Below, in pieces: positions 30,220 through 64,000 of a stretch of 64,000 nt of DNA (within the stretch, counting starts at the first letter, position 1; every line of letters begins with the position of its first letter). The notes beneath the pieces are model-generated. The model was not told the origin of the DNA and made no database searches. It worked only from the letters and a program-made list of their open reading frames with translations. Both the position numbers and the translations under genes were made by a program. The stretch covers positions 1 through 64,000 of the IMG/VR virus record IMGVR_UViG_3300028920_000043, one strand, 5' to 3'. This DNA comes from a virus.

Positions 30220-30773
30220 TTTAACCCCTTTCCTATCCTGTACTGGTATCGTATAAAGCCACGCGCCGGTATTGGGCGTACTCCAAATGCCAAGAACTCA
30301 TAAAACCATTCCGGTGACTTCTTATGAAGAATCTTCTCATCCAAATACATCAGAAGATTTTCATTTCGTATCTTATCGATGTTTGACGCCATCCAATTAA
30401 ATAAAAGCAATGGTGGTGGTTTCTTGTCAAGTAAATATTTAAGAACTGACTGCCTATCTTTGCTTTTGAATACTGTATTCAAACACTCAAATATATCTAC
30501 TGACTCTCCCCACTTATTATGCTCCATTACTGAAATGCTTTTTGGAAGACGTTTCAGCTTCTCACGATTCCGCACAAGCAAGACAACATTCATCTGCGCG
30601 TTCTCAATGATCCACTTGATGTCCTTGGCATTTATTTTCAGGTCATCACAATCTACAAACCATCCTTTTACTTCTATGATGGAACGCAGACGAAAGACAT
30701 CCTTCCGGAATGCCGAAAGACGTTTGAATCCCTCCGGCATTTTATGATCACCCACTATTATCTTTACGCTCAT
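30141..30773 (-). CDS. Unknown protein between clamp and clamp loader
   Basis: About 210 residues from the ATG at 30773 (ATGA with the clamp stop; the ATG at 30779 is two codons earlier). SVKIIVGDHK, NVVLLVRNREKL and FVDCDDLKINAKDIK suggest an alpha/beta N-half; the C-half is helical (SVLKYLLDKKPPPLLLF). The layout and location recall delta/HolA-like or gp62-like second clamp-loader subunits, but no motif proves it. The C-terminal 26 codons overlap the clamp-loader gene in another frame. Confidence 0.55.
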   Translation of the reverse strand: MSVKIIVGDHKMPEGFKRLSAFRKDVFRLRSIIEVKGWFVDCDDLKINAKDIKWIIENAQMNVVLLVRNREKLKRLPKSISVMEHNKWGESVDIFECLNTVFKSKDRQSVLKYLLDKKPPPLLLFNWMASNIDKIRNENLLMYLDEKILHKKSPEWFYEFLAFGVRPIPARGFIRYQYRIGKGLKCLQRNLDPRHLMRSGVIRTSLRKYD

Positions 30774-31582
30774 TCCCAAGGCCTCTTCACTGGCTCATTG
30801 ACAATATAGACAAATCTGCATATCCCATCCTGTCCCTTGATATGCATTGCCGTTCTATTGAGAAATCGAATCTCAACCGACTCACCACTTATGCATCCCA
30901 AAGTTTCTGCCAGACCAAACTCATAGTATGAATCTGTGTCTGAGCATTGAAGCTTTCCAAATAACTGAGTGATGGTGTCATTATCCCTTCTGATCACCAC
31001 GCTCAACTTTCCTTTCGATTCAAGGAAATGAAACGACTGCTTGCCGATTGCATCCGAGTCGCTTATCAATGCCTTCATGCTGGAAACCGGAATGATCAGC
31101 TTGTCTGATTTCTTGAAATTCAACTCCCCTACCTTTTTAGTTTTCAGAATAAGGGGCTCATACTGCAAGGGTGCCGCGGCTATATGACTATCAATCTGGT
31201 CTTCTTTGTTGATAGTCAAATCTGCACGCTTGCCCTTCTGCCCTATGGACAAACGAGAGCCGCTTAGTTTCAAATAAACCTTTCCTTCAAATCTATCCAG
31301 TATCTTTTGCAGATAATCGATTCCCGGAACAGGAATATGACCATCGCCGACCGTCTCCGCTTTTAGTGAGACATTAAACACCACAACTCCCTGAACACAA
31401 ATACCGAACGTGCTCAGCATACCCTCCCCGATATGCAATAAGCAATCCGATATGACACCAGAGACCGAGATCTTGCTGAAGAACTTTTTGAGATCAGCAA
31501 CATCTGCTGTTGCCTTAAGCTCTTCGCGTGCCGATGTGGTTTTCTTTTTTACAACCTTCTTCTTTGTTTTCTTTTTGACCAT
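30770..31582 (-). CDS. PCNA-like sliding clamp
   Basis: About 270 residues from the ATG at 31582 (TTG at 31591 is a longer alternative). After a lysine-rich head (VKKKTKKKVVKKK) there is a two-domain clamp-like architecture: LKKFFSKISVSGVISDCLLH, VYLKLSGSRLSIG, then KSDKLIIPVSSMKALISDS, KLSVVIRRDND and a late SGESVEIRF with a C-terminal IVNEP segment. Gene order clamp - unknown - RFC-like - polymerase supports the call. It tethers the UDG-PolA polymerase to DNA. Confidence 0.7.
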   Translation of the reverse strand: MVKKKTKKKVVKKKTTSAREELKATADVADLKKFFSKISVSGVISDCLLHIGEGMLSTFGICVQGVVVFNVSLKAETVGDGHIPVPGIDYLQKILDRFEGKVYLKLSGSRLSIGQKGKRADLTINKEDQIDSHIAAAPLQYEPLILKTKKVGELNFKKSDKLIIPVSSMKALISDSDAIGKQSFHFLESKGKLSVVIRRDNDTITQLFGKLQCSDTDSYYEFGLAETLGCISGESVEIRFLNRTAMHIKGQDGICRFVYIVNEPVKRPWE

Positions 31583-31596
31583 TACCTTCAATCCTC

Positions 31597-32493
31597 CTAA
31601 ACAAAACTTCTATAGGTTGTCGGTTCCCATTTCCATAAGCGCTCAAATTCCAAAAAGAATATTGTATTGAACTCGCATCTCATATAATAATTGACACGAA
31701 GTTCCTCAAACGGATAGCGCTCAGGATCATCAAAATATTGTTGACCCCAATCCTGTAAACGCTTCTTTATTACTTTCTGAACTTTCAATGGAAGTTTCTT
31801 TATGTATGTCTTCTCATGCTCTCTCCTTTCCGATACTATCAACCGTGTAGGTATGTTCCTAAACCAAGGACTGTAACATTCAGGAAATGTTTTCTTATCC
31901 ATGATAATAGTTCCCATCGCTGACGCTATTGTCCACGTTGTAGAATCAACTGAGAACCATGGATACTTTTTCATCAGCTCTTGAGACGTCATTCCAAATC
32001 CATGAATCCGAATGCCTTTTTCTTGAGTGATCCTAAATGCCTTGTCTAATCTTCCTATGGTTATTCGTTCCGGAACTTCGTTCTTTGCAAGACCACCAAA
32101 TCCAATATAATCATATCCGGCATCCACATACTTTTGTAAAATATCTAAATCCTCAAACGGAGGATGCCAAACGGGTAAAGGCATCAATCCTTTCTTCTCC
32201 ATGTACCGTTGATTCTTCCACGTCCCTTCTGGAGATCCGATAACATCGAGATTAACATATGTACCAATCTTATTCTTATACTCTTTTATGAACTCAATAT
32301 ACTCATCGAGATTCACTTCTTTACCACGAGTATAAGCAGAGAACGCTCCTGAGTCCAAGAAGATTTTCTTTCTCTTCTTCTTGAAGTATTTAAGAAGCTT
32401 TTTCTTCTCCAGGAAATTCTCAAGACCATTTGCATCCAAAAATCCAAGATCCTGAGACTCCCTGTGCATGGTTGCGGCAAGATAAATAATCAC
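31597..32493 (-). CDS. dpdA: DpdA-like 7-deazaguanine DNA transglycosylase
   Basis: 298 residues, GTG start. The TIM-barrel features of the phage DpdA/TGT-related family are visible: FLDSGAFSAYTRGKEVN, YVNLDVIGSPEG, a PVWHPPFEDLD segment, YIGFGGLAKNEV, RIHGFGM and FSVDSTTW. The enzyme exchanges guanine in DNA for a preformed 7-deazaguanine such as preQ0. The preceding QueC gene is six nt upstream and QueE, QueD and FolE are in the same cluster. The released base is guanine, which gives a rationale for the phosphoribosyltransferase domain on FolE. Confidence 0.85.
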   Translation of the reverse strand: MIIYLAATMHRESQDLGFLDANGLENFLEKKKLLKYFKKKRKKIFLDSGAFSAYTRGKEVNLDEYIEFIKEYKNKIGTYVNLDVIGSPEGTWKNQRYMEKKGLMPLPVWHPPFEDLDILQKYVDAGYDYIGFGGLAKNEVPERITIGRLDKAFRITQEKGIRIHGFGMTSQELMKKYPWFSVDSTTWTIASAMGTIIMDKKTFPECYSPWFRNIPTRLIVSERREHEKTYIKKLPLKVQKVIKKRLQDWGQQYFDDPERYPFEELRVNYYMRCEFNTIFFLEFERLWKWEPTTYRSFV

Positions 32494-32498
32494 AATTA

Positions 32499-33122
32499 CT
32501 ATTCTCCCTTCTTCTTGCTCTCCCGGTACTCATTCATTACCTGGCAATTGTTGCACTCGCCGCAGGGCTTTCCTTTGACAGGGAAGAAGCAATTGAAAAT
32601 ATCATCCAGCGTGATTCCGTTCAACTCAAGCTCTTCGAATACCTCATTCTTCTTCATCTTGTCATGCCGGTTCTCCGCGAGCGGCACTCTGACTTTGACA
32701 TTGTGAATATTCAGGTAGTCCACAAGCCCTTGCATCATCTGATAGAATATCAGAGTGCTGTCGGTGTAACTGTATGGGTCTTCCTCAACGTATCCGATTC
32801 CTTTTGATCCGGAACACACTTCACCAGCATCGATGCTCGCCGCGTAGTTCAGTGCCAATGTGGTTATCAGCACGTTCCGAAAAGGAATGAATACCTTTCC
32901 CCTATCGAATTTCAAACCATCGACCTTGACCACGTGAGGAGGTGCCAACATCAAGAGATTTGAGATATGCTCGCAAGCATGAATCTCCTCAGCGATATAC
33001 GGCTGACCATAATTGACAAAGCAAGGGTATACTACCTTGCCCTCCTTCTTCAGCCGCAATGCCACCAACGCACTGTCTGCGCCTCCTGACAACTCCACTA
33101 CCGACTTGAACTTCTTTTCCAT
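32499..33122 (-). CDS. queC: 7-cyano-7-deazaguanine (preQ0) synthase QueC
   Basis: 207 residues. PP-loop ATPase motif SGGADS at 12-17, GSKGIGYVEEDPYSYTD in the centre, and a C-terminal four-Cys zinc site FFPVKGKPCGECNNC. It converts 7-carboxy-7-deazaguanine to preQ0 with ATP and ammonia. Length is close to bacterial QueC. It overlaps the aminotransferase gene by 25 nt, so the two are translationally coupled. Confidence 0.9.
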   Translation of the reverse strand: MEKKFKSVVELSGGADSALVALRLKKEGKVVYPCFVNYGQPYIAEEIHACEHISNLLMLAPPHVVKVDGLKFDRGKVFIPFRNVLITTLALNYAASIDAGEVCSGSKGIGYVEEDPYSYTDSTLIFYQMMQGLVDYLNIHNVKVRVPLAENRHDKMKKNEVFEELELNGITLDDIFNCFFPVKGKPCGECNNCQVMNEYRESKKKGE

Positions 33123-34018
33123 GCCAGCATCTCCTTTGCTAAGGTTTCATAAACTTTCGGATCCGTATAATTATACGTACTGATCTGAAACTTGTCTCCT
33201 AAATAAACATTATAATAGACTGAGTAGTTTCTTGTTTTCAAATACTCAACCAGTTTCTTATCATAATCAAAAGTCAAGATTGGGGCCGGACAATCTCCAT
33301 ACCGTCCCGGCATGAATTGAAAGAAAGAACTATTGGTATCAATGATACTTCTTACTTTTTCAATATCAAAGTGAAGAAGTGATTGCTGCAATGAAAAGAT
33401 CTGAGGGATAAGTGACGTGTTTGGCGTTTGATATTTCTTCGAGTACTCGTAGATGTTACAAAGATCCAATATAGTTCCTTTGTGTCGTACCAATAGGGTT
33501 CCGGCAATGAGATCCTTCTTTATGAAAATAATTCCCATCGTGGGCAAGCCACCCAATATCTTTCCCGAAGATCCAATGATAACATCCGCATTCCAATTTA
33601 TTTCGTAATAGCCTATTCCACTCGCGTAGTCCAAAAGATTCATACCAGATACCAACTCAGGCTCTTTGAACTCGCTCTTAGATGTTTCAAACGGACAGCA
33701 GATAAAACAGTCTCCGAACTCCCAACCGTTATAATCACAATATAAGTCCATAGTCTTATGAAATCTTTTATTGAATTCTCCCCGTTCTTCTTCACTGCGA
33801 AAAGAATTCAACGAAGGACCTATAGACGCGCATACCGTTTCTATTGCTACCGTGGTGCTTCCATTGGCAAACAATATCACAAACTCATCCGGTACCCGTA
33901 ACCGATCCCGTAATAACTCAACCGTGCGCTTGTATAAATCACAGAACTCAGCAGAGCGGTGATGGTAATTGAAAATCTCACCACCATAGAAAGGCCTGTT
34001 CACACCAAGATAAATCAT
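33098..34018 (-). CDS. Class V PLP-dependent aminotransferase in the preQ0 cluster
   Basis: 306 residues, related to the SerC/alanine-glyoxylate/PhnW branch. Seen: HRSAEF near residue 20, GSTTVAIE at 53-60, LLDYASGIG with Asp130 in the place that binds the pyridine nitrogen, and NADVIIGSSGKILGG with the expected Schiff-base Lys153. Shorter than most aminotransferases (about 350-400). It lies between FolE and QueC with 1-25 nt spacing and is co-transcribed. Possible roles: amino or sulfur donor for a modified 7-deazaguanine, or an unrelated amino acid reaction. Not a standard member of the QueDEC pathway. Confidence 0.8.
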   Translation of the reverse strand: MIYLGVNRPFYGGEIFNYHHRSAEFCDLYKRTVELLRDRLRVPDEFVILFANGSTTVAIETVCASIGPSLNSFRSEEERGEFNKRFHKTMDLYCDYNGWEFGDCFICCPFETSKSEFKEPELVSGMNLLDYASGIGYYEINWNADVIIGSSGKILGGLPTMGIIFIKKDLIAGTLLVRHKGTILDLCNIYEYSKKYQTPNTSLIPQIFSLQQSLLHFDIEKVRSIIDTNSSFFQFMPGRYGDCPAPILTFDYDKKLVEYLKTRNYSVYYNVYLGDKFQISTYNYTDPKVYETLAKEMLAWKRSSSR

Positions 34019-34019
34019 C

Positions 34020-34910
34020 TCACTCTCCCACTAATTTCAAAAACTCGTTCCTCACTTGTGGATCGTCCCGAAAGACTCCTGTCATCGAACTGGTTACCAT
34101 CCAGCTATGTTGTTTCTCTACTCCGCGCGCCACCATGCATAAGTGCTGAGCCTTCACAACCACGCCCACTCCCTTTGGTTTCAAAACATCGTTGAGCGCA
34201 TTGGAGATCTGTGTTGTCAATCGTTCTTGTATCTGAAGACGTCTGGAAAAACATTCGACCAATCTCGCCAACTTACTGATCCCCACTACCTTTCCATCCG
34301 GTAGATATCCTATATGAATACTTCCATAGAACGGTAGCATATGATGCTCGCAATTTGAATAAAACTCAATTCCTTTTAATGCTACAATCTCATCATAGTC
34401 ACCACTTTCAGAAAAAACAGTACTGAGAATGTCCTTGGGTCTAATAAAGTACCCCCCATACAATCTATTCCATGATTTCACTACGCGCTTTGGCGTGTCC
34501 TTCAATCCTTCGCGTTCTGGATCTTCACCTATCGCTTGTAGAATTCTTATCACTGCATCCTCTGCTGGTGCTTCGTTCTGTGCGCGCTCCCAGGGAAAGA
34601 CCAACCATTCAGTCTTTCTCGATTCAAACAACGGAAAGAAGTGCGGGAATTGTCTGAAGCGCTTTCGTGTTTCTCCTGTGTCCTTTATGTCATCAATAAT
34701 CGCTACTACATTTGTAGCCTCACCTCCCATATCCACCAGATCATCCAGCAGTGTCCGATGGATCATCTTAGCGATGATTGCCGCTGGTGTTATTCCCCCA
34801 CGCGGCACGCCATAAATATATTTGATCTGATTTCCCATCGCTCGTATCTGTTCGGCTATTCTATCACACTCTTGGAATATTTCTGTCCAGTCAACGTTAT
34901 ACCTGTCCAT
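34020..34910 (-). CDS. Phosphoribosyltransferase - GTP cyclohydrolase I fusion
   Basis: 296 residues. Residues 1-100 are a small PRTase: IYGVPRGGITPAAI, VVAIIDDIKDTGETRKRF (PRPP motif with DD and TG) and EWLVFPWERA, resembling the Gpt/6-oxopurine branch. From about 110 to the end is FolE: TPKRVVKSW, FYSNCEHHMLPF (zinc), VGISKLARLVECFSRRLQ and KAQHLCMVARG (Cys/His zinc ligands). It makes dihydroneopterin triphosphate, the first intermediate of preQ0. The PRTase could recycle guanine, or simply use another purine. Confidence 0.85.
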   Translation of the reverse strand: MDRYNVDWTEIFQECDRIAEQIRAMGNQIKYIYGVPRGGITPAAIIAKMIHRTLLDDLVDMGGEATNVVAIIDDIKDTGETRKRFRQFPHFFPLFESRKTEWLVFPWERAQNEAPAEDAVIRILQAIGEDPEREGLKDTPKRVVKSWNRLYGGYFIRPKDILSTVFSESGDYDEIVALKGIEFYSNCEHHMLPFYGSIHIGYLPDGKVVGISKLARLVECFSRRLQIQERLTTQISNALNDVLKPKGVGVVVKAQHLCMVARGVEKQHSWMVTSSMTGVFRDDPQVRNEFLKLVGE

Positions 34911-35512
34911 TACTGCACTCCTATCATCTTTTGGGTTTGCAGACTCAACCTCCAGTCCGGGTATTCTTTACACAGCTCCACAACCTCCTCAATGTTTTTC
35001 TCTGAGCATGGTTGAAGATAGTGATATACGAACCGACCAAACTTCTTTGGAGTTGCCAAGTCCTTTCGATTCGGAAAGTCCTCGGTGACAACAATCTTAA
35101 TCTCGTCACCATAATCTTGCGCGTACTCTCCGCACTTTGGAGACACCGTGACCCAGGACAACCAATGGCCTATTCCAATGTCATATAGTCGGATTGTTCC
35201 ATTCGTTTCAATCGCTGTCTTCATTCCGTGTTCCAATCGCAATGGTTTGAGAATGTCCGCGTCCAATTGCAATGCAGGCTCACCACCTGTAAAGATAACG
35301 AAGTTACACGGGAAACTACAAATGCGCTCTATGAGCTGTTTGGCATCTGGAGATTCGTTTACCGTGTGGACTGTATCGCAAAAGTCACAGTTCAAATTGC
35401 ATCCGGCGAATCTCACAAAGACTGCGGGGCGTCCTGTATTCGCGCCTTCACCTTGCAACGAATAAAAGATCTCGGTTATATTATAACTCGTCATTGATCC
35501 AGGTACACTCAT
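34910..35512 (-). CDS. queE: 7-carboxy-7-deazaguanine synthase QueE
   Basis: About 200 residues. Radical SAM motif CNLNCDFCDT (CxxxCxxC) after FYSLQGEG, then FTGGEPALQ and a KIVVTEDFP-type segment; this is the QueE core. Three ATGs are close together (35521, 35512, 35494). The middle one has AAGGAG at a suitable distance; the last would start MTSYNITEIF. It forms the 7-deazapurine ring from 6-carboxytetrahydropterin. Overlaps the QueD gene. Confidence 0.88.
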   Translation of the reverse strand: MSVPGSMTSYNITEIFYSLQGEGANTGRPAVFVRFAGCNLNCDFCDTVHTVNESPDAKQLIERICSFPCNFVIFTGGEPALQLDADILKPLRLEHGMKTAIETNGTIRLYDIGIGHWLSWVTVSPKCGEYAQDYGDEIKIVVTEDFPNRKDLATPKKFGRFVYHYLQPCSEKNIEEVVELCKEYPDWRLSLQTQKMIGVQ

Positions 35513-35825
35513 TGCCTTCATTCTCCTTTATAAGAACAATAGCGGCCCCCAGTTTTTTGCCAATCGTCACTGCCAGGTTTTCCATTGTCGGATTCTTATC
35601 CTTGAACTCTTCGAGATCATTGAGGTTGACGTGATCGAACCGCTTCAGGTATTCCTTAGCCTCTCTGCAATCAATCACGAAACCATGCTCATCCAGTTCA
35701 TCATCCTGGCATTGGAACGTAACTTCCAGATGATAATTGTGCCCGTGCTGATTCGCGCAAGGTCCAGAATAGTCACGCAAGAAATGCCCGGCACTTATTT
35801 CCTTAGTTACTGTTAAGTTAAACAT
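35481..35825 (-). CDS. queD: 6-carboxytetrahydropterin synthase QueD
   Basis: 114 residues. EISAGHFLRDY, CANQHGHNYHLEV (zinc His and catalytic Cys), FVIDCREAKEYLKRFDHVNLND and NPTMENLA form the QueD/PTPS signature. GGAGGATAAG precedes the ATG. It converts dihydroneopterin triphosphate into CPH4 for QueE. First gene of the Que cluster, just downstream of the FEN-like nuclease gene. Confidence 0.92.
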   Translation of the reverse strand: MFNLTVTKEISAGHFLRDYSGPCANQHGHNYHLEVTFQCQDDELDEHGFVIDCREAKEYLKRFDHVNLNDLEEFKDKNPTMENLAVTIGKKLGAAIVLIKENEGNECTWINDEL

Positions 35826-59903: not shown

Positions 59904-61166
59904 TTAAGTTAACAAAGAGCTGACTGTCTCAATCCTAGAATCCCATGAGCATTCAAGAACTTCTTTATACAGATTTTCAGCTCTTAAATTTCTTTCAGAG
60001 CTATCTCGCTCTACTGCTTTCATTTTATCAACCAAATCATCCTCATCTACAACTGCAAATTCTTCTCCTTTATAATAATCAGAAGTACCCAAATAAAGAT
60101 CTTTATCCGCTTCCCGAAATCCTTTCACGCGCACCAAATAAGAATTGCCGTGGTTCAAATAGTCTCGGAATCCACCCCAATCTGTTTGAATCACTGGCTT
60201 CTTCATAGCACCGAATTGCAATCCGGGCAACCATGTACTTTCTCCCTTGGAAGCGCCGATACCACAATCCATTCTTGCCATGAGATGCGGCATTAAATTC
60301 GGATGAAGCGAAACATCACAGATCTTTATTGTAGGAATCTGTGAGTTAAGGAAATCAGACGTTATATCAGAATACTCTTTTTGTATCGTCCAATGATCCT
60401 TTATGAATCTCTTCCAACCATAAGGCCGATTTGAATACTTGGCAAACATTAAAAGAGCCACGTCCTTCCGGCCTTCAAAAGCACGAATAAAACTTCTTAC
60501 TATTTCCTTCACTCCTTTTCTCGCATTCCATGATCCAACGAATCCAAAAACAAACTTATCCTGCAATCCTTCAATCTTCATGGGTTCCACGTTTGGATTA
60601 TACTTGTTAATATCGACACCCAAACGAACTACCTTTACCGAGCATCCGGTTACTTTCAAATACTCGAATCTCACCTTGTCCAATGGCGTAGGCATCCAAA
60701 CTTCGTCCACCTGATCAAACCATTTCTTCATATACTTTGGAAACTTTCGGCTCTCCGTCATCGTCCACGCTATTTTTGTTTTTACTTTCCGCTTCCTTTC
60801 ATGCCACATCCAACCAGGGCCGGCAATCAATAGCATAGTAGCCTTTTTTGGATTGACTCTCCGGAATGTATAGCGTAGAATTCGCTGATACTCAAATGGA
60901 TCCAGATCTATCAGCGATGGTATTTTCTCAAGCTGTATGTGAAACTTATGACTCTCATCCAATCGTGTCAATACTTCTCTCGTATGCTCCGCATATCCTC
61001 CAAGAAAATCAGTGAAGCCTTTTATCAATAATGGAGTGCTGTCAATATTAGACAATGAAAAGAAATTAAATGTCCGATCATTACAAGTCACGGATTCCAA
61101 GCTCTCTGGATTGAGCGTTGGAAAATCAGACTTCTTTTGGTTTACTTTTCTTGTATCTAACTTCAT
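59904..61166 (-). CDS. Glycosyltransferase family 4-like protein
   Basis: 420 residues. A GT-B second domain is clear: VFGFVGSWNARKGVKEIVRSF, VALLMFAKYSNRPYGWKRF, KICDVSLHPNLMPHLMARM, then CGIGASKGESTWLPGLQFGAM and PVIQTDWGGFRDYLNHG. The order matches GT4 transferases. It is placed inside the tail operon between the gp10-like and tail tube genes, an unusual spot, so its acceptor may be a virion protein. Overlaps the gp10-like gene by 4 nt. Confidence 0.8.
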   Translation of the reverse strand: MKLDTRKVNQKKSDFPTLNPESLESVTCNDRTFNFFSLSNIDSTPLLIKGFTDFLGGYAEHTREVLTRLDESHKFHIQLEKIPSLIDLDPFEYQRILRYTFRRVNPKKATMLLIAGPGWMWHERKRKVKTKIAWTMTESRKFPKYMKKWFDQVDEVWMPTPLDKVRFEYLKVTGCSVKVVRLGVDINKYNPNVEPMKIEGLQDKFVFGFVGSWNARKGVKEIVRSFIRAFEGRKDVALLMFAKYSNRPYGWKRFIKDHWTIQKEYSDITSDFLNSQIPTIKICDVSLHPNLMPHLMARMDCGIGASKGESTWLPGLQFGAMKKPVIQTDWGGFRDYLNHGNSYLVRVKGFREADKDLYLGTSDYYKGEEFAVVDEDDLVDKMKAVERDSSERNLRAENLYKEVLECSWDSRIETVSSLLT

Positions 61167-61648
61167 TTCATCTTATACACTTTCTTGAACCGACTCAATA
61201 ATACGCGCTCACCATATTTGATTGCCGGCCTCATAAACGGTTGTTTCTTTTGTCCTTTGACCCTCTTTCTTACTATCTCTGTTCCATCCGGCAACTCAAA
61301 TGCCATTGCTTCCTGCGTCTTCGGATAGATCCATTGCTTCTTCGGACCGTACATTCCAGTTCCATACTCAACAAAGTACGCATAAGGAATATCTGTCTTT
61401 CCTTGCATCCGTGTTCCAACATAACCCTCAAAAACATGAGGACCGCTTTTGGTCATCCAACTCTCAATGCTTGCTGCCAAAGCACCTGATTCACCAACCG
61501 GAGCTTTTTCAGTTGCTCGCGTCTCCACCGCCAGCAGTATTTGCTGAAATGCCATCTTTGCTTCCAATTGCTTTTGTTTGCGAACCATTGCAAACTTCCG
61601 CATGAGGCTTGGAAGCCCGATGACTTTTATCTCTACTACGCCTGCCAT
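61163..61648 (-). CDS. HK97 gp10-like head-tail protein
   Basis: 161 residues. KVIGLPSLMRKFAMVRKQKQ, ETRATEKAPVGESGALAASI and YVGTRMQGKTDIPYAYFVEYG plus QPFMRPAIKYGERVL fit the HK97 gp10 family, which sits between connector and tail tube genes and completes the neck. Spacing to its neighbours is 1-4 nt. Confidence 0.82.
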   Translation of the reverse strand: MAGVVEIKVIGLPSLMRKFAMVRKQKQLEAKMAFQQILLAVETRATEKAPVGESGALAASIESWMTKSGPHVFEGYVGTRMQGKTDIPYAYFVEYGTGMYGPKKQWIYPKTQEAMAFELPDGTEIVRKRVKGQKKQPFMRPAIKYGERVLLSRFKKVYKMK

Positions 61649-61995
61649 CAGTCGTTCTCGTCATCAGTATGCTGAATCTCATCAGCAAGAATTTCCAAAT
61701 GATGTCCTTGTCCACCTGCATCGTGAGGCTTAATTATTTTATACCTATCCGAGTTGACCCAGATCTCGTAGTTATTTTTTACTGGCGCATTGATAGAAGC
61801 GAAGATAACCACATCGGCATTTGTAACTTCACCAAACTCCTCCTGCTCCTCCTTAGCGCTTATGGGCTGAACTCGAACTCTAACCTCTGATGCTATGATC
61901 TGCAGAACATTCTTGGACTCACCGAACTCGTTTACCGATCCAGCAGTCCATTTCTTAATAACGGCCGTAGTATTCAATAAAGAACTGAAAGACAT
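61648..61995 (-). CDS. Head-tail joining protein
   Basis: 115 residues. SFSSLLNTTAVIKKWTAGSV, VRVRVQPISAKEEQE and NYEIWVNSDRYKIIKPHDAGGQG are typical of phage head-tail joining/stopper proteins of the SPP1 gp16/HK97 type. Position before the gp10-like gene supports this. Confidence 0.72.
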   Translation of the reverse strand: MSFSSLLNTTAVIKKWTAGSVNEFGESKNVLQIIASEVRVRVQPISAKEEQEEFGEVTNADVVIFASINAPVKNNYEIWVNSDRYKIIKPHDAGGQGHHLEILADEIQHTDDEND

Positions 61996-62012
61996 TTCTG
62001 ATTCCTCAAGAC

Positions 62013-62447
62013 TTATGGATCGTTGTTTGCTGGATCTTCCTCATACACCGTGTCAAAGTTTATTGGGTATGACCATATATCCAGATCAGAATCATATACC
62101 GCGAATCCTCCTCCCGACTTTACAAACAAGTTTACTACCAAGCCACCGGTGCTCAGTGCTACATTCTGTTTGTTTAGTAAGGTAATCAATCGCTCACCAA
62201 TATCACTCACCAATGTCTTGTAAGGCTGATCATCCGACCCCTTGACCCACGCAGTAATTATTATGGTGTCGCTTGCTGATGGAAATACAGCATGGCTCTC
62301 GCCAGGCGTCTCGCGTATAGTGATCATCGGATAAGTCATGTCCTTCTCAGGATCGACCCATCCGGTTTTGACTTTCTTAACAGGACTGGGATAGAGCTGG
62401 TTGTCCTGCATTATTCGCGTCAGGATATTTGGAATTAACAATGGCAT
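62013..62447 (-). CDS. Tail terminator/completion-like protein
   Basis: 144 residues. LIPNILTRIMQDNQLYPSPVK, YPMITIRETPGESHAVFPS, IIITAWVKGSDDQPYK and LSDIGERLITLL show the strand-helix-strand pattern of tail completion proteins. It lies between the connector and the joining gene, one base from the connector. Confidence 0.5.
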   Translation of the reverse strand: MPLLIPNILTRIMQDNQLYPSPVKKVKTGWVDPEKDMTYPMITIRETPGESHAVFPSASDTIIITAWVKGSDDQPYKTLVSDIGERLITLLNKQNVALSTGGLVVNLFVKSGGGFAVYDSDLDIWSYPINFDTVYEEDPANNDP

Positions 62448-63097
62448 TATATTGCCTCCCCTACTATATCACCCGCACCACCATACCGAGACATGATGTC
62501 ATCCATCTCCTCTTCGATGACTTGCTTGGGCGATAACGTTTCACCGGTTGACTTTTTCTTGTAGGAGTATCGACCAATCGTCTCGGCTATGATGTCACCG
62601 GTTGCTTCTCCTCCTTTGAACGTCAACGCTTTCTTGACCACAAACAAAGTGGCGAGTGCTATAATATCATTCGGAACTGTTGGCCATCCGAATATGCCAG
62701 TGATCTCGATATTCAACAGTCCGCGTTTCTCCGGGGAGTAATCAGGGCTTATCGTCCTGACGTAAGAACCGTCCACTTGCAAGTCCGAAAGATCATCCGC
62801 CCAACTGGTCAGGCGGATGTATCCTTCTGAAGTGTAGATCTTCATATTTGCAGCATCAACTTCGTTGCCATCAATCTTCAGACTGGAAATAGATTGGATC
62901 GGACCATGGGTCTCTCGCTGATTGATGTCGATGAAGTTCGAGTCAATCGAATCTATCTCTATTGTTTCTGATTCGGTATTGCCGAACTTTCCAAGATTAG
63001 AATTCACAAAATCATCTGCTTCTTGGATCCATGTATCCGGAATATCCGCTTCGGCAATGCCATACTCTGTTACTTTTGTTTTATTTGTATATGGCAT
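62447..63097 (-). CDS. Head-tail connector (gp6-like)
   Basis: 216 residues. Helical start TKVTEYGIAEADIPDTWIQEADDFVNSN-type, then a beta section (SISSLKIDGNEVDAANMKIY) and NDIIALATLFVVKKAL with a Ser/Lys-rich end. This fits HK97 gp6/DNA-packaging connector proteins. Upstream genes (portal, capsid) would lie beyond the window. Confidence 0.6.
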   Translation of the reverse strand: MPYTNKTKVTEYGIAEADIPDTWIQEADDFVNSNLGKFGNTESETIEIDSIDSNFIDINQRETHGPIQSISSLKIDGNEVDAANMKIYTSEGYIRLTSWADDLSDLQVDGSYVRTISPDYSPEKRGLLNIEITGIFGWPTVPNDIIALATLFVVKKALTFKGGEATGDIIAETIGRYSYKKKSTGETLSPKQVIEEEMDDIMSRYGGAGDIVGEAI

Positions 63098-63108
63098 TTC
63101 CTATCTCC

Positions 63109-64000
63109 TCAAAAAATATCACCGCACTCCGCAAAAAAGCTTTCCATATCTTTCATCAGGTTCAGAAACTTTATGTTGTAATATTTTGGATTGAGAAGAT
63201 CAGAACGATCTGGAAACTCACTCATCAACTGTTTCCACAATGTCTGTACCGTTTCAATCACTCCCGTCTTTGGCGCATCGAATCCAATTAACTGTTTAAG
63301 CCTCTCTCCTGATATACTGTAACTTCTGACTTCCCTGCTGTCGTAGTCCGGAATCACTTCTATAGGAATATCCGGCTCTACTGTATGTATGCAATGCCGA
63401 ACATAATTTCCAAGCTCAGAAATACGGTAGTTCTTATGCATTACATTTACTGTCTGATACTTTATATTATCTATCGGCATTTCCAGTAGCTTTGTCCAAA
63501 CTTTCGCCACGTCTACAACGTTCACCAATGGACGCCAACACTCCCCTCCGGCTACCAACAAAATCCGACCAAGAAGTAATGCGTCCTTGACCATCGTATT
63601 CACCACCAGATCAAACCGCGGCCGGATAGATGCACCCATCACTGTCGCTTGCCGAAGCAATGTAGGTTTGAGTGTTCCGTGCTCCGCGATCTTTAACATT
63701 CCGCATTCCGCATTGTACTTTGCTTCCGCGTAGAATGATTTAGGATCTACAGGACTTTCTTCCGTGAGAATATTCGTATCCTGGAATCCATACACTGCGG
63801 CAGAAGACGCAAAGATGAAACGCTCAATTCCAGCCTTCGCGCACTCCTCCGCGAACTTCACAGCACCAACATTGTTTATGGCATCGTTGGCCTCCGGATT
63901 AAAATTCGCCATTGGATCGTTTGACAATCCAGCAAGATGGCAAACGGCATCAAAGCCTTTCAAATCCTCAGCGGTGAATGATCTGAAATCCTTTCGGATG
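63109..64000 (-). CDS. NAD-dependent sugar epimerase/dehydratase, 5' end outside
   Basis: Open to the window edge, so the N-terminal Rossmann GxxGxxG part is missing. Seen: GFDAVCHLAGLSNDPMAN (the HLAA-type motif), ERFIFASSAAVYGF (SSA...YG), the catalytic Tyr-x-x-x-Lys in YAEAKYNAECG and LLRQATVMGASIRPR. It is an extended SDR epimerase/dehydratase acting on nucleotide sugars. It may supply the glycosyltransferases in the tail module. The apparent start at 63963 (TTG) is internal. Confidence 0.85.
   Translation of the reverse strand, partial: IRKDFRSFTAEDLKGFDAVCHLAGLSNDPMANFNPEANDAINNVGAVKFAEECAKAGIERFIFASSAAVYGFQDTNILTEESPVDPKSFYAEAKYNAECGMLKIAEHGTLKPTLLRQATVMGASIRPRFDLVVNTMVKDALLLGRILLVAGGECWRPLVNVVDVAKVWTKLLEMPIDNIKYQTVNVMHKNYRISELGNYVRHCIHTVEPDIPIEVIPDYDSREVRSYSISGERLKQLIGFDAPKTGVIETVQTLWKQLMSEFPDRSDLLNPKYYNIKFLNLMKDMESFFAECGDIF

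Follow-up and report, generated by a model that had tools for sequence, protein, structure and literature searches.

The gene at positions 33098-34018 of the stretch analysed here (the window: the first 64,000 nucleotides of IMG/VR virus record IMGVR_UViG_3300028920_000043, which totals 111,210 bases) encodes a remote member of the class V (SerC/AGT/PhnW-group) fold-type I enzymes, a class that uses pyridoxal 5'-phosphate (PLP), and falls under every curated cut-off. Its position was confirmed as that of a genuine gene within a compact QueD-QueE-FolE-AT-QueC-DpdA operon, in which AT is the PLP gene, and from this operon it is predicted that guanine in the phage DNA is probably replaced by a 7-deazaguanine base. 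Tentatively, and with a likelihood a little short of even, the protein is read as an accessory PLP enzyme that works with a divergent QueC on the C7 substituent of that base; we infer its PLP binding, its catalysis and its participation in the pathway. FolE, QueD and QueE, to judge from their families, would together produce 7-carboxy-7-deazaguanine, and the 7-carboxylate would be activated by the divergent QueC. Coupled to QueC in translation, the PLP protein would act on the C7 nitrogen substituent either before or after QueC, and DpdA would then exchange the product of the pathway for guanine in the phage DNA.

The operon setting provides the first line of evidence. On the minus strand the order is 5'-3' exonuclease, QueD, QueE, FolE, PLP gene, QueC, DpdA, a gene of 273 amino acids (aa), one further gene, clamp loader, and DNA polymerase A, with six genes of the operon tightly packed, neighbours overlapping by 1-41 nt or lying at most 5 nt apart. 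The stop-to-stop frame around the PLP gene spans only 310 aa, which excludes a longer start or anything hidden upstream; the gene has a ribosome-site-like stretch to itself, and within its 3' end is located a strong ribosome site for queC (AAAGGAGATGC). A preliminary description of this DNA had placed the gene between FolE and QueC in a que/dpd cluster, and the neighbours, the coordinates, and the 25-nt overlap with queC all proved correct, as did the view that the gene is extraneous to the known route from GTP to preQ0 (7-cyano-7-deazaguanine), within a complete preQ0-type operon with DpdA. While the placement stood, the term "aminotransferase" is unproven, and an N-terminal phosphoribosyltransferase (PRTase) domain on FolE, the atypical QueC, and the loss of an arginine and an N-terminal arm from the PLP protein had been overlooked. 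A minimal gene set that contains no PLP gene has been reported to give dPreQ0 (Hutinet et al., 2019; PMC6884629), and the text of that paper never mentions PLP, its single "aminotransferase" being the G+ amidotransferases. The window operon differs from the phage dPreQ0/dADG/dG+ systems described there in two respects, its additional PLP gene and the divergence of its QueC.

The SerC/AGT-like class V assignment made in the preliminary description is upheld by remote profile, PDB, and Foldseek matches, but the Pfam family PF00266 matches at E=7.7e-4 and 19 bits, under its curated cut-off of 21.5. Among the NCBIfam models, SerC matches the N-terminal part of the protein (7.7e-8, far under the equivalog cut-off) and PhnW the part around the PLP lysine (5.8e-7, 29 bits vs a cut-off of 361), and a PDB sequence search returned 2dr1 at 1.3e-4 as well as several SerC entries. 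From HHRS to the C-terminus, the protein aligns collinearly with SerC of E. coli and with a further three proteins of SerC type. A structure model built on 20 SerC alignment rows was of modest quality (predicted local distance difference test, pLDDT, 60; predicted template modelling score, pTM, 0.61); its best Foldseek matches were without exception class V enzymes of fold-type I, for the most part phosphoserine aminotransferase (PSAT)/SerC at E ~1e-10, a ranking that is partly built in because the alignment rows were themselves SerC. A search of BFVD with this model gave weak, generic PLP-enzyme matches only, and a single-sequence AlphaFold model (pLDDT 36) was discarded.

Residues that serve the cofactor are retained in the protein, and those that would bind an amino acid have been lost together. 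Alignment identifies the class V PLP lysine (K153) and pyridine-binding aspartate (D130), E111-T112, G53-S54-T55, and T198-P-x-T201, together with H20-R21-S22, which bears out the Lys153, Asp130, HRS, and GST motifs named earlier. K153 lies one column out of the SerC register in MAFFT alignments; against the PH1308-type serine aminotransferase 2dr1 and PhnW, the 2-aminoethylphosphonate (AEP) transaminase, the PLP-lysine loop (DVIIGSSGKILGGLP) is ungapped, and the likeness to these two extends to the TPxT..PQ region. SerC/PSAT shares with the protein collinearity over most of its length, the HRS, cofactor Lys and Asp, ET, and TPxT elements, and a C-terminal S-x-YN motif; the protein is nonetheless only ~20% identical to it and ~56 aa shorter. 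Of the SerC phosphate site (H41/R42 and H328/R329), the HHR part is kept and the GHR part lost, the position of E. coli SerC W102 is occupied by Phe, and the N-terminal "NFSxGP" arm of class V enzymes is absent, the N-terminus being truncated relative to 2dr1 and PhnW also. The class V C-terminal arginine for the alpha-carboxylate, which the latter two likewise possess, is R335 in E. coli SerC and aligns with Q278 here; this placement comes from alignment to the E. coli enzyme, to three more proteins of SerC type, and to 20 of 26 SerC loci, all of which carry Arg, and an R335-equivalent Arg is present in 26/26 of the SerC loci retrieved. In SerC and AGT structures, the N-terminal arm and R335 form the class V pocket for the alpha-carboxylate, and the loss of both thus points to an altered substrate or to inactivity rather than to a single stray substitution. 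At the level of sequence, the alpha-amino-acid pocket is lost, which makes an ordinary amino-acid transaminase less likely and leaves the "intact aminotransferase" of the preliminary description doubtful where amino-acid transamination is concerned.

These losses bear on what the gene might otherwise be. If it encoded an ordinary auxiliary metabolic aminotransferase of the SerC/AGT-like kind, unconnected to the deazaguanine pathway, its top family matches would be readily explained, these being SerC, PhnW, and AGT-type enzymes, and true SerC does occur in a few phage records; however, the R335 that all 26 SerC loci carry has given way to Q, neither H328-R329 nor the N-terminal arm is present, and the gene lies deep in the que-dpd operon, coupled to queC, which together render this explanation distinctly improbable. 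A donor that feeds nitrogen or sulfur to QueC, through ammonia release or a cysteine-desulfurase-like persulfide, is a very unlikely alternative, even though the gene adjoins QueC, a consumer of a nitrogen donor, and desulfurases are known among class V enzymes: free ammonia is not a product of transaminases, and the protein has neither a NifS/IscS-type family match nor a Cys at the catalytic loop position of desulfurases, its sole candidate, C243, being misplaced 90 residues past K153 and aligned to a core strand. The supply of sulfur to QueC that had been suggested earlier is accordingly not favoured.

The partner QueC is atypical too. Its P-loop (SGGADS) and zinc cysteines are kept, the YPDCR motif has become YTDST, and in a QueC tree it sits on a long branch (1.25) with no close relative. 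In phages L089, L104, and L159, the genes for FolE, QueC, and DpdA are contiguous with nothing in between, and the window PLP gene is therefore an extra at the QueC step. QueC proteins missing the YxDC motif were found in 26 of 94 loci, a class set by a plain motif criterion, under which some truncated open reading frames (ORFs) are included as well. A radical SAM protein accompanies 6/26 of these vs 0/68 of the loci with the motif, a contrast that is not phylogenetically independent, with two of the six, L128 and L129, looking like the same phage. The DpdA-anchored clusters in which it occurs include L131 (6953-8029), L152 (5050-6087), L105 (6109-7164), and L108 (5835-6857), all with divergent QueC. 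They resemble the window in placing an accessory enzyme near a non-canonical QueC, and in L131 the enzyme likewise stands between FolE and QueC, but it is a radical SAM protein where the window has a PLP protein. As a precedent for an accessory enzyme beside a divergent QueC, this combination is suggestive only. Elsewhere, single que-dpdA clusters hold two distinct divergent QueC paralogues (L095:7049-8433, L090:5876-7398, and L121:3304-5104). Related glycosyltransferase-like genes also lie inside such clusters (L002:12400-13569, L110:7945-9057, L028:7471-8490, and L056:7324-8481), and it is possible that they place a sugar on the deazaguanine; that of L028 matches Glycos_transf_1, its L002 counterpart is without a Pfam match, and in L002 a radical SAM protein stands beside it.

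The PLP gene is a singleton among the sequences searched. Single-sequence searches confirmed no relative in IMG/VR viral contigs, genome contigs, or phages, and a plasmid search produced weak SerC matches only; an alignment-seeded search found nothing in viral contigs and canonical SerC only in genome contigs. No class V enzyme was detected with PF00266 in 149 other virus records that carry a related FolE or DpdA, many of which are fragments, such that the absence holds for the places searched rather than for whole phages. PF00266 hardly detects the PLP protein itself, for which reason phmmer and a SerC-plus-window profile were added, and over all ORFs of the fetched loci these likewise returned no relative. 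In none of these searches did the subfamily recur next to queC and dpdA. The one apparent class V match, in G047 (L075, from the record of L070), was rejected once its sequence had been read, and is a DegT-type sugar aminotransferase; it adjoins a formyltransferase-like gene in a phage that also has a FolE/PRTase locus.

An accessory enzyme acting with QueC is favoured by the tight packing of the operon with the queC coupling site inside the PLP gene, by the pattern of residues kept and lost, by the divergence of QueC itself, and by the absence of a separate QueF from the virus record. Several points weigh against it in addition to the limits on the QueC comparison given above: no relative that would show conservation or co-occurrence was found, residues 268-286 have pLDDT <50 in the model, and hence Q278 is located by alignment alone, nothing indicates a chemistry directly, and loss of the alpha-carboxylate Arg could equally mean a dead enzyme. 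In the latter case, a captured class V gene would be decaying, or would persist in a purely structural role as a QueC-binding protein or for the sake of translational coupling, as might be expected of a protein that is ~56 aa shorter than SerC, has no relatives found, and lacks the GP arm at its N-terminus as well as the Arg for the alpha-carboxylate and the phosphate site of SerC; the selective retention of the K, D, ET, GST, and TPxT PLP residues and an open 306-aa frame with its own ribosome site speak against this, and we consider it unlikely, though the most serious of the alternatives.

For an accessory enzyme that is active, the altered pocket argues for the use of one or more substrates other than a normal alpha-amino acid, such as an amine or aldehyde carried by the deazaguanine, and the protein may yield an undescribed form of the 7-deazaguanine base. 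A bolder proposal, which we regard as speculative and rather improbable, is that the protein and the divergent QueC jointly install an unreported C7 substituent, such as an amine built on the deazaguanine, in what would be the first PLP-dependent 7-deazaguanine step, carried out by a class V fold that no longer has its amino-acid pocket. If an accessory role is correct, PLP chemistry would join the tailoring reactions of phage 7-deazaguanines, as part of a wider and little described theme in which que-dpdA operons, some with a divergent QueC, carry accessory genes (PLP, radical SAM, glycosyltransferase-like, and guanine-type PRTase). Each type of accessory gene hints at still undescribed DNA bases with a possible resistance to restriction.

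Table 1. Coordinates of the PLP gene and its operon neighbours in the window.
Feature	Position	Strand	Remarks
Class V PLP-fold protein	33098..34018	minus	306 aa, ATG start; PLP Lys153, Asp130; Q278 replacing alpha-carboxylate Arg
QueD-like 6-carboxytetrahydropterin (CPH4) synthase	35481..35825	minus	family profile matches
QueE-like radical SAM 7-carboxy-7-deazaguanine (CDG) synthase	34910..35521	minus	family profile matches
FolE (GTP cyclohydrolase I) with N-terminal Gpt/XGPRT-like PRTase domain, aa 1-110	34020..34910	minus	family matches
Divergent QueC, 207 aa	32499..33122	minus	P-loop and zinc cysteines kept; YPDCR replaced; long branch
DpdA DNA-guanine transglycosylase	31597..32493	minus	D47 and D183 at TGT-type catalytic Asp positions
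PLP gene/queC overlap, 25 nt	33098..33122	.	queC ribosome site inside PLP gene
Unannotated 273-aa gene	30770-31591	minus	comes after DpdA in operon

The N-terminal PRTase domain of FolE (window 34580-34910) has Gpt-type guanine/xanthine PRTases as its closest solved relatives, and among 66 DpdA-anchored loci with FolE, a PRTase is fused in 22 and encoded by a neighbouring gene in 8. A DpdA-type transglycosylase should release guanine, and an attractive explanation is that the PRTase would salvage this guanine to GMP, and thus to GTP for FolE; a literature search of titles and abstracts returned none describing guanine salvage by PRTase-FolE in phage deazaguanine systems. The window DpdA keeps both of the catalytic aspartates of tRNA-guanine transglycosylase (TGT) type enzymes. 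QueF was considered as a nitrile-reducing step and dropped, as the sole QueF match in the virus record is the T-fold of FolE itself. In one other locus (L119:8338-10851), DpdA is split at its catalytic SVDS motif by an in-frame intein-like insert, which starts with C and ends with GN before S. DNA polymerase A and the clamp loader repeatedly follow the que-dpdA cluster in most DpdA-anchored loci, the window included. Phage sugar genes, comprising an epimerase, RmlC-like and RmlD proteins, methyltransferases, and a large glycosyltransferase, are found at window positions 59904-63963 and at L077:658-6254.
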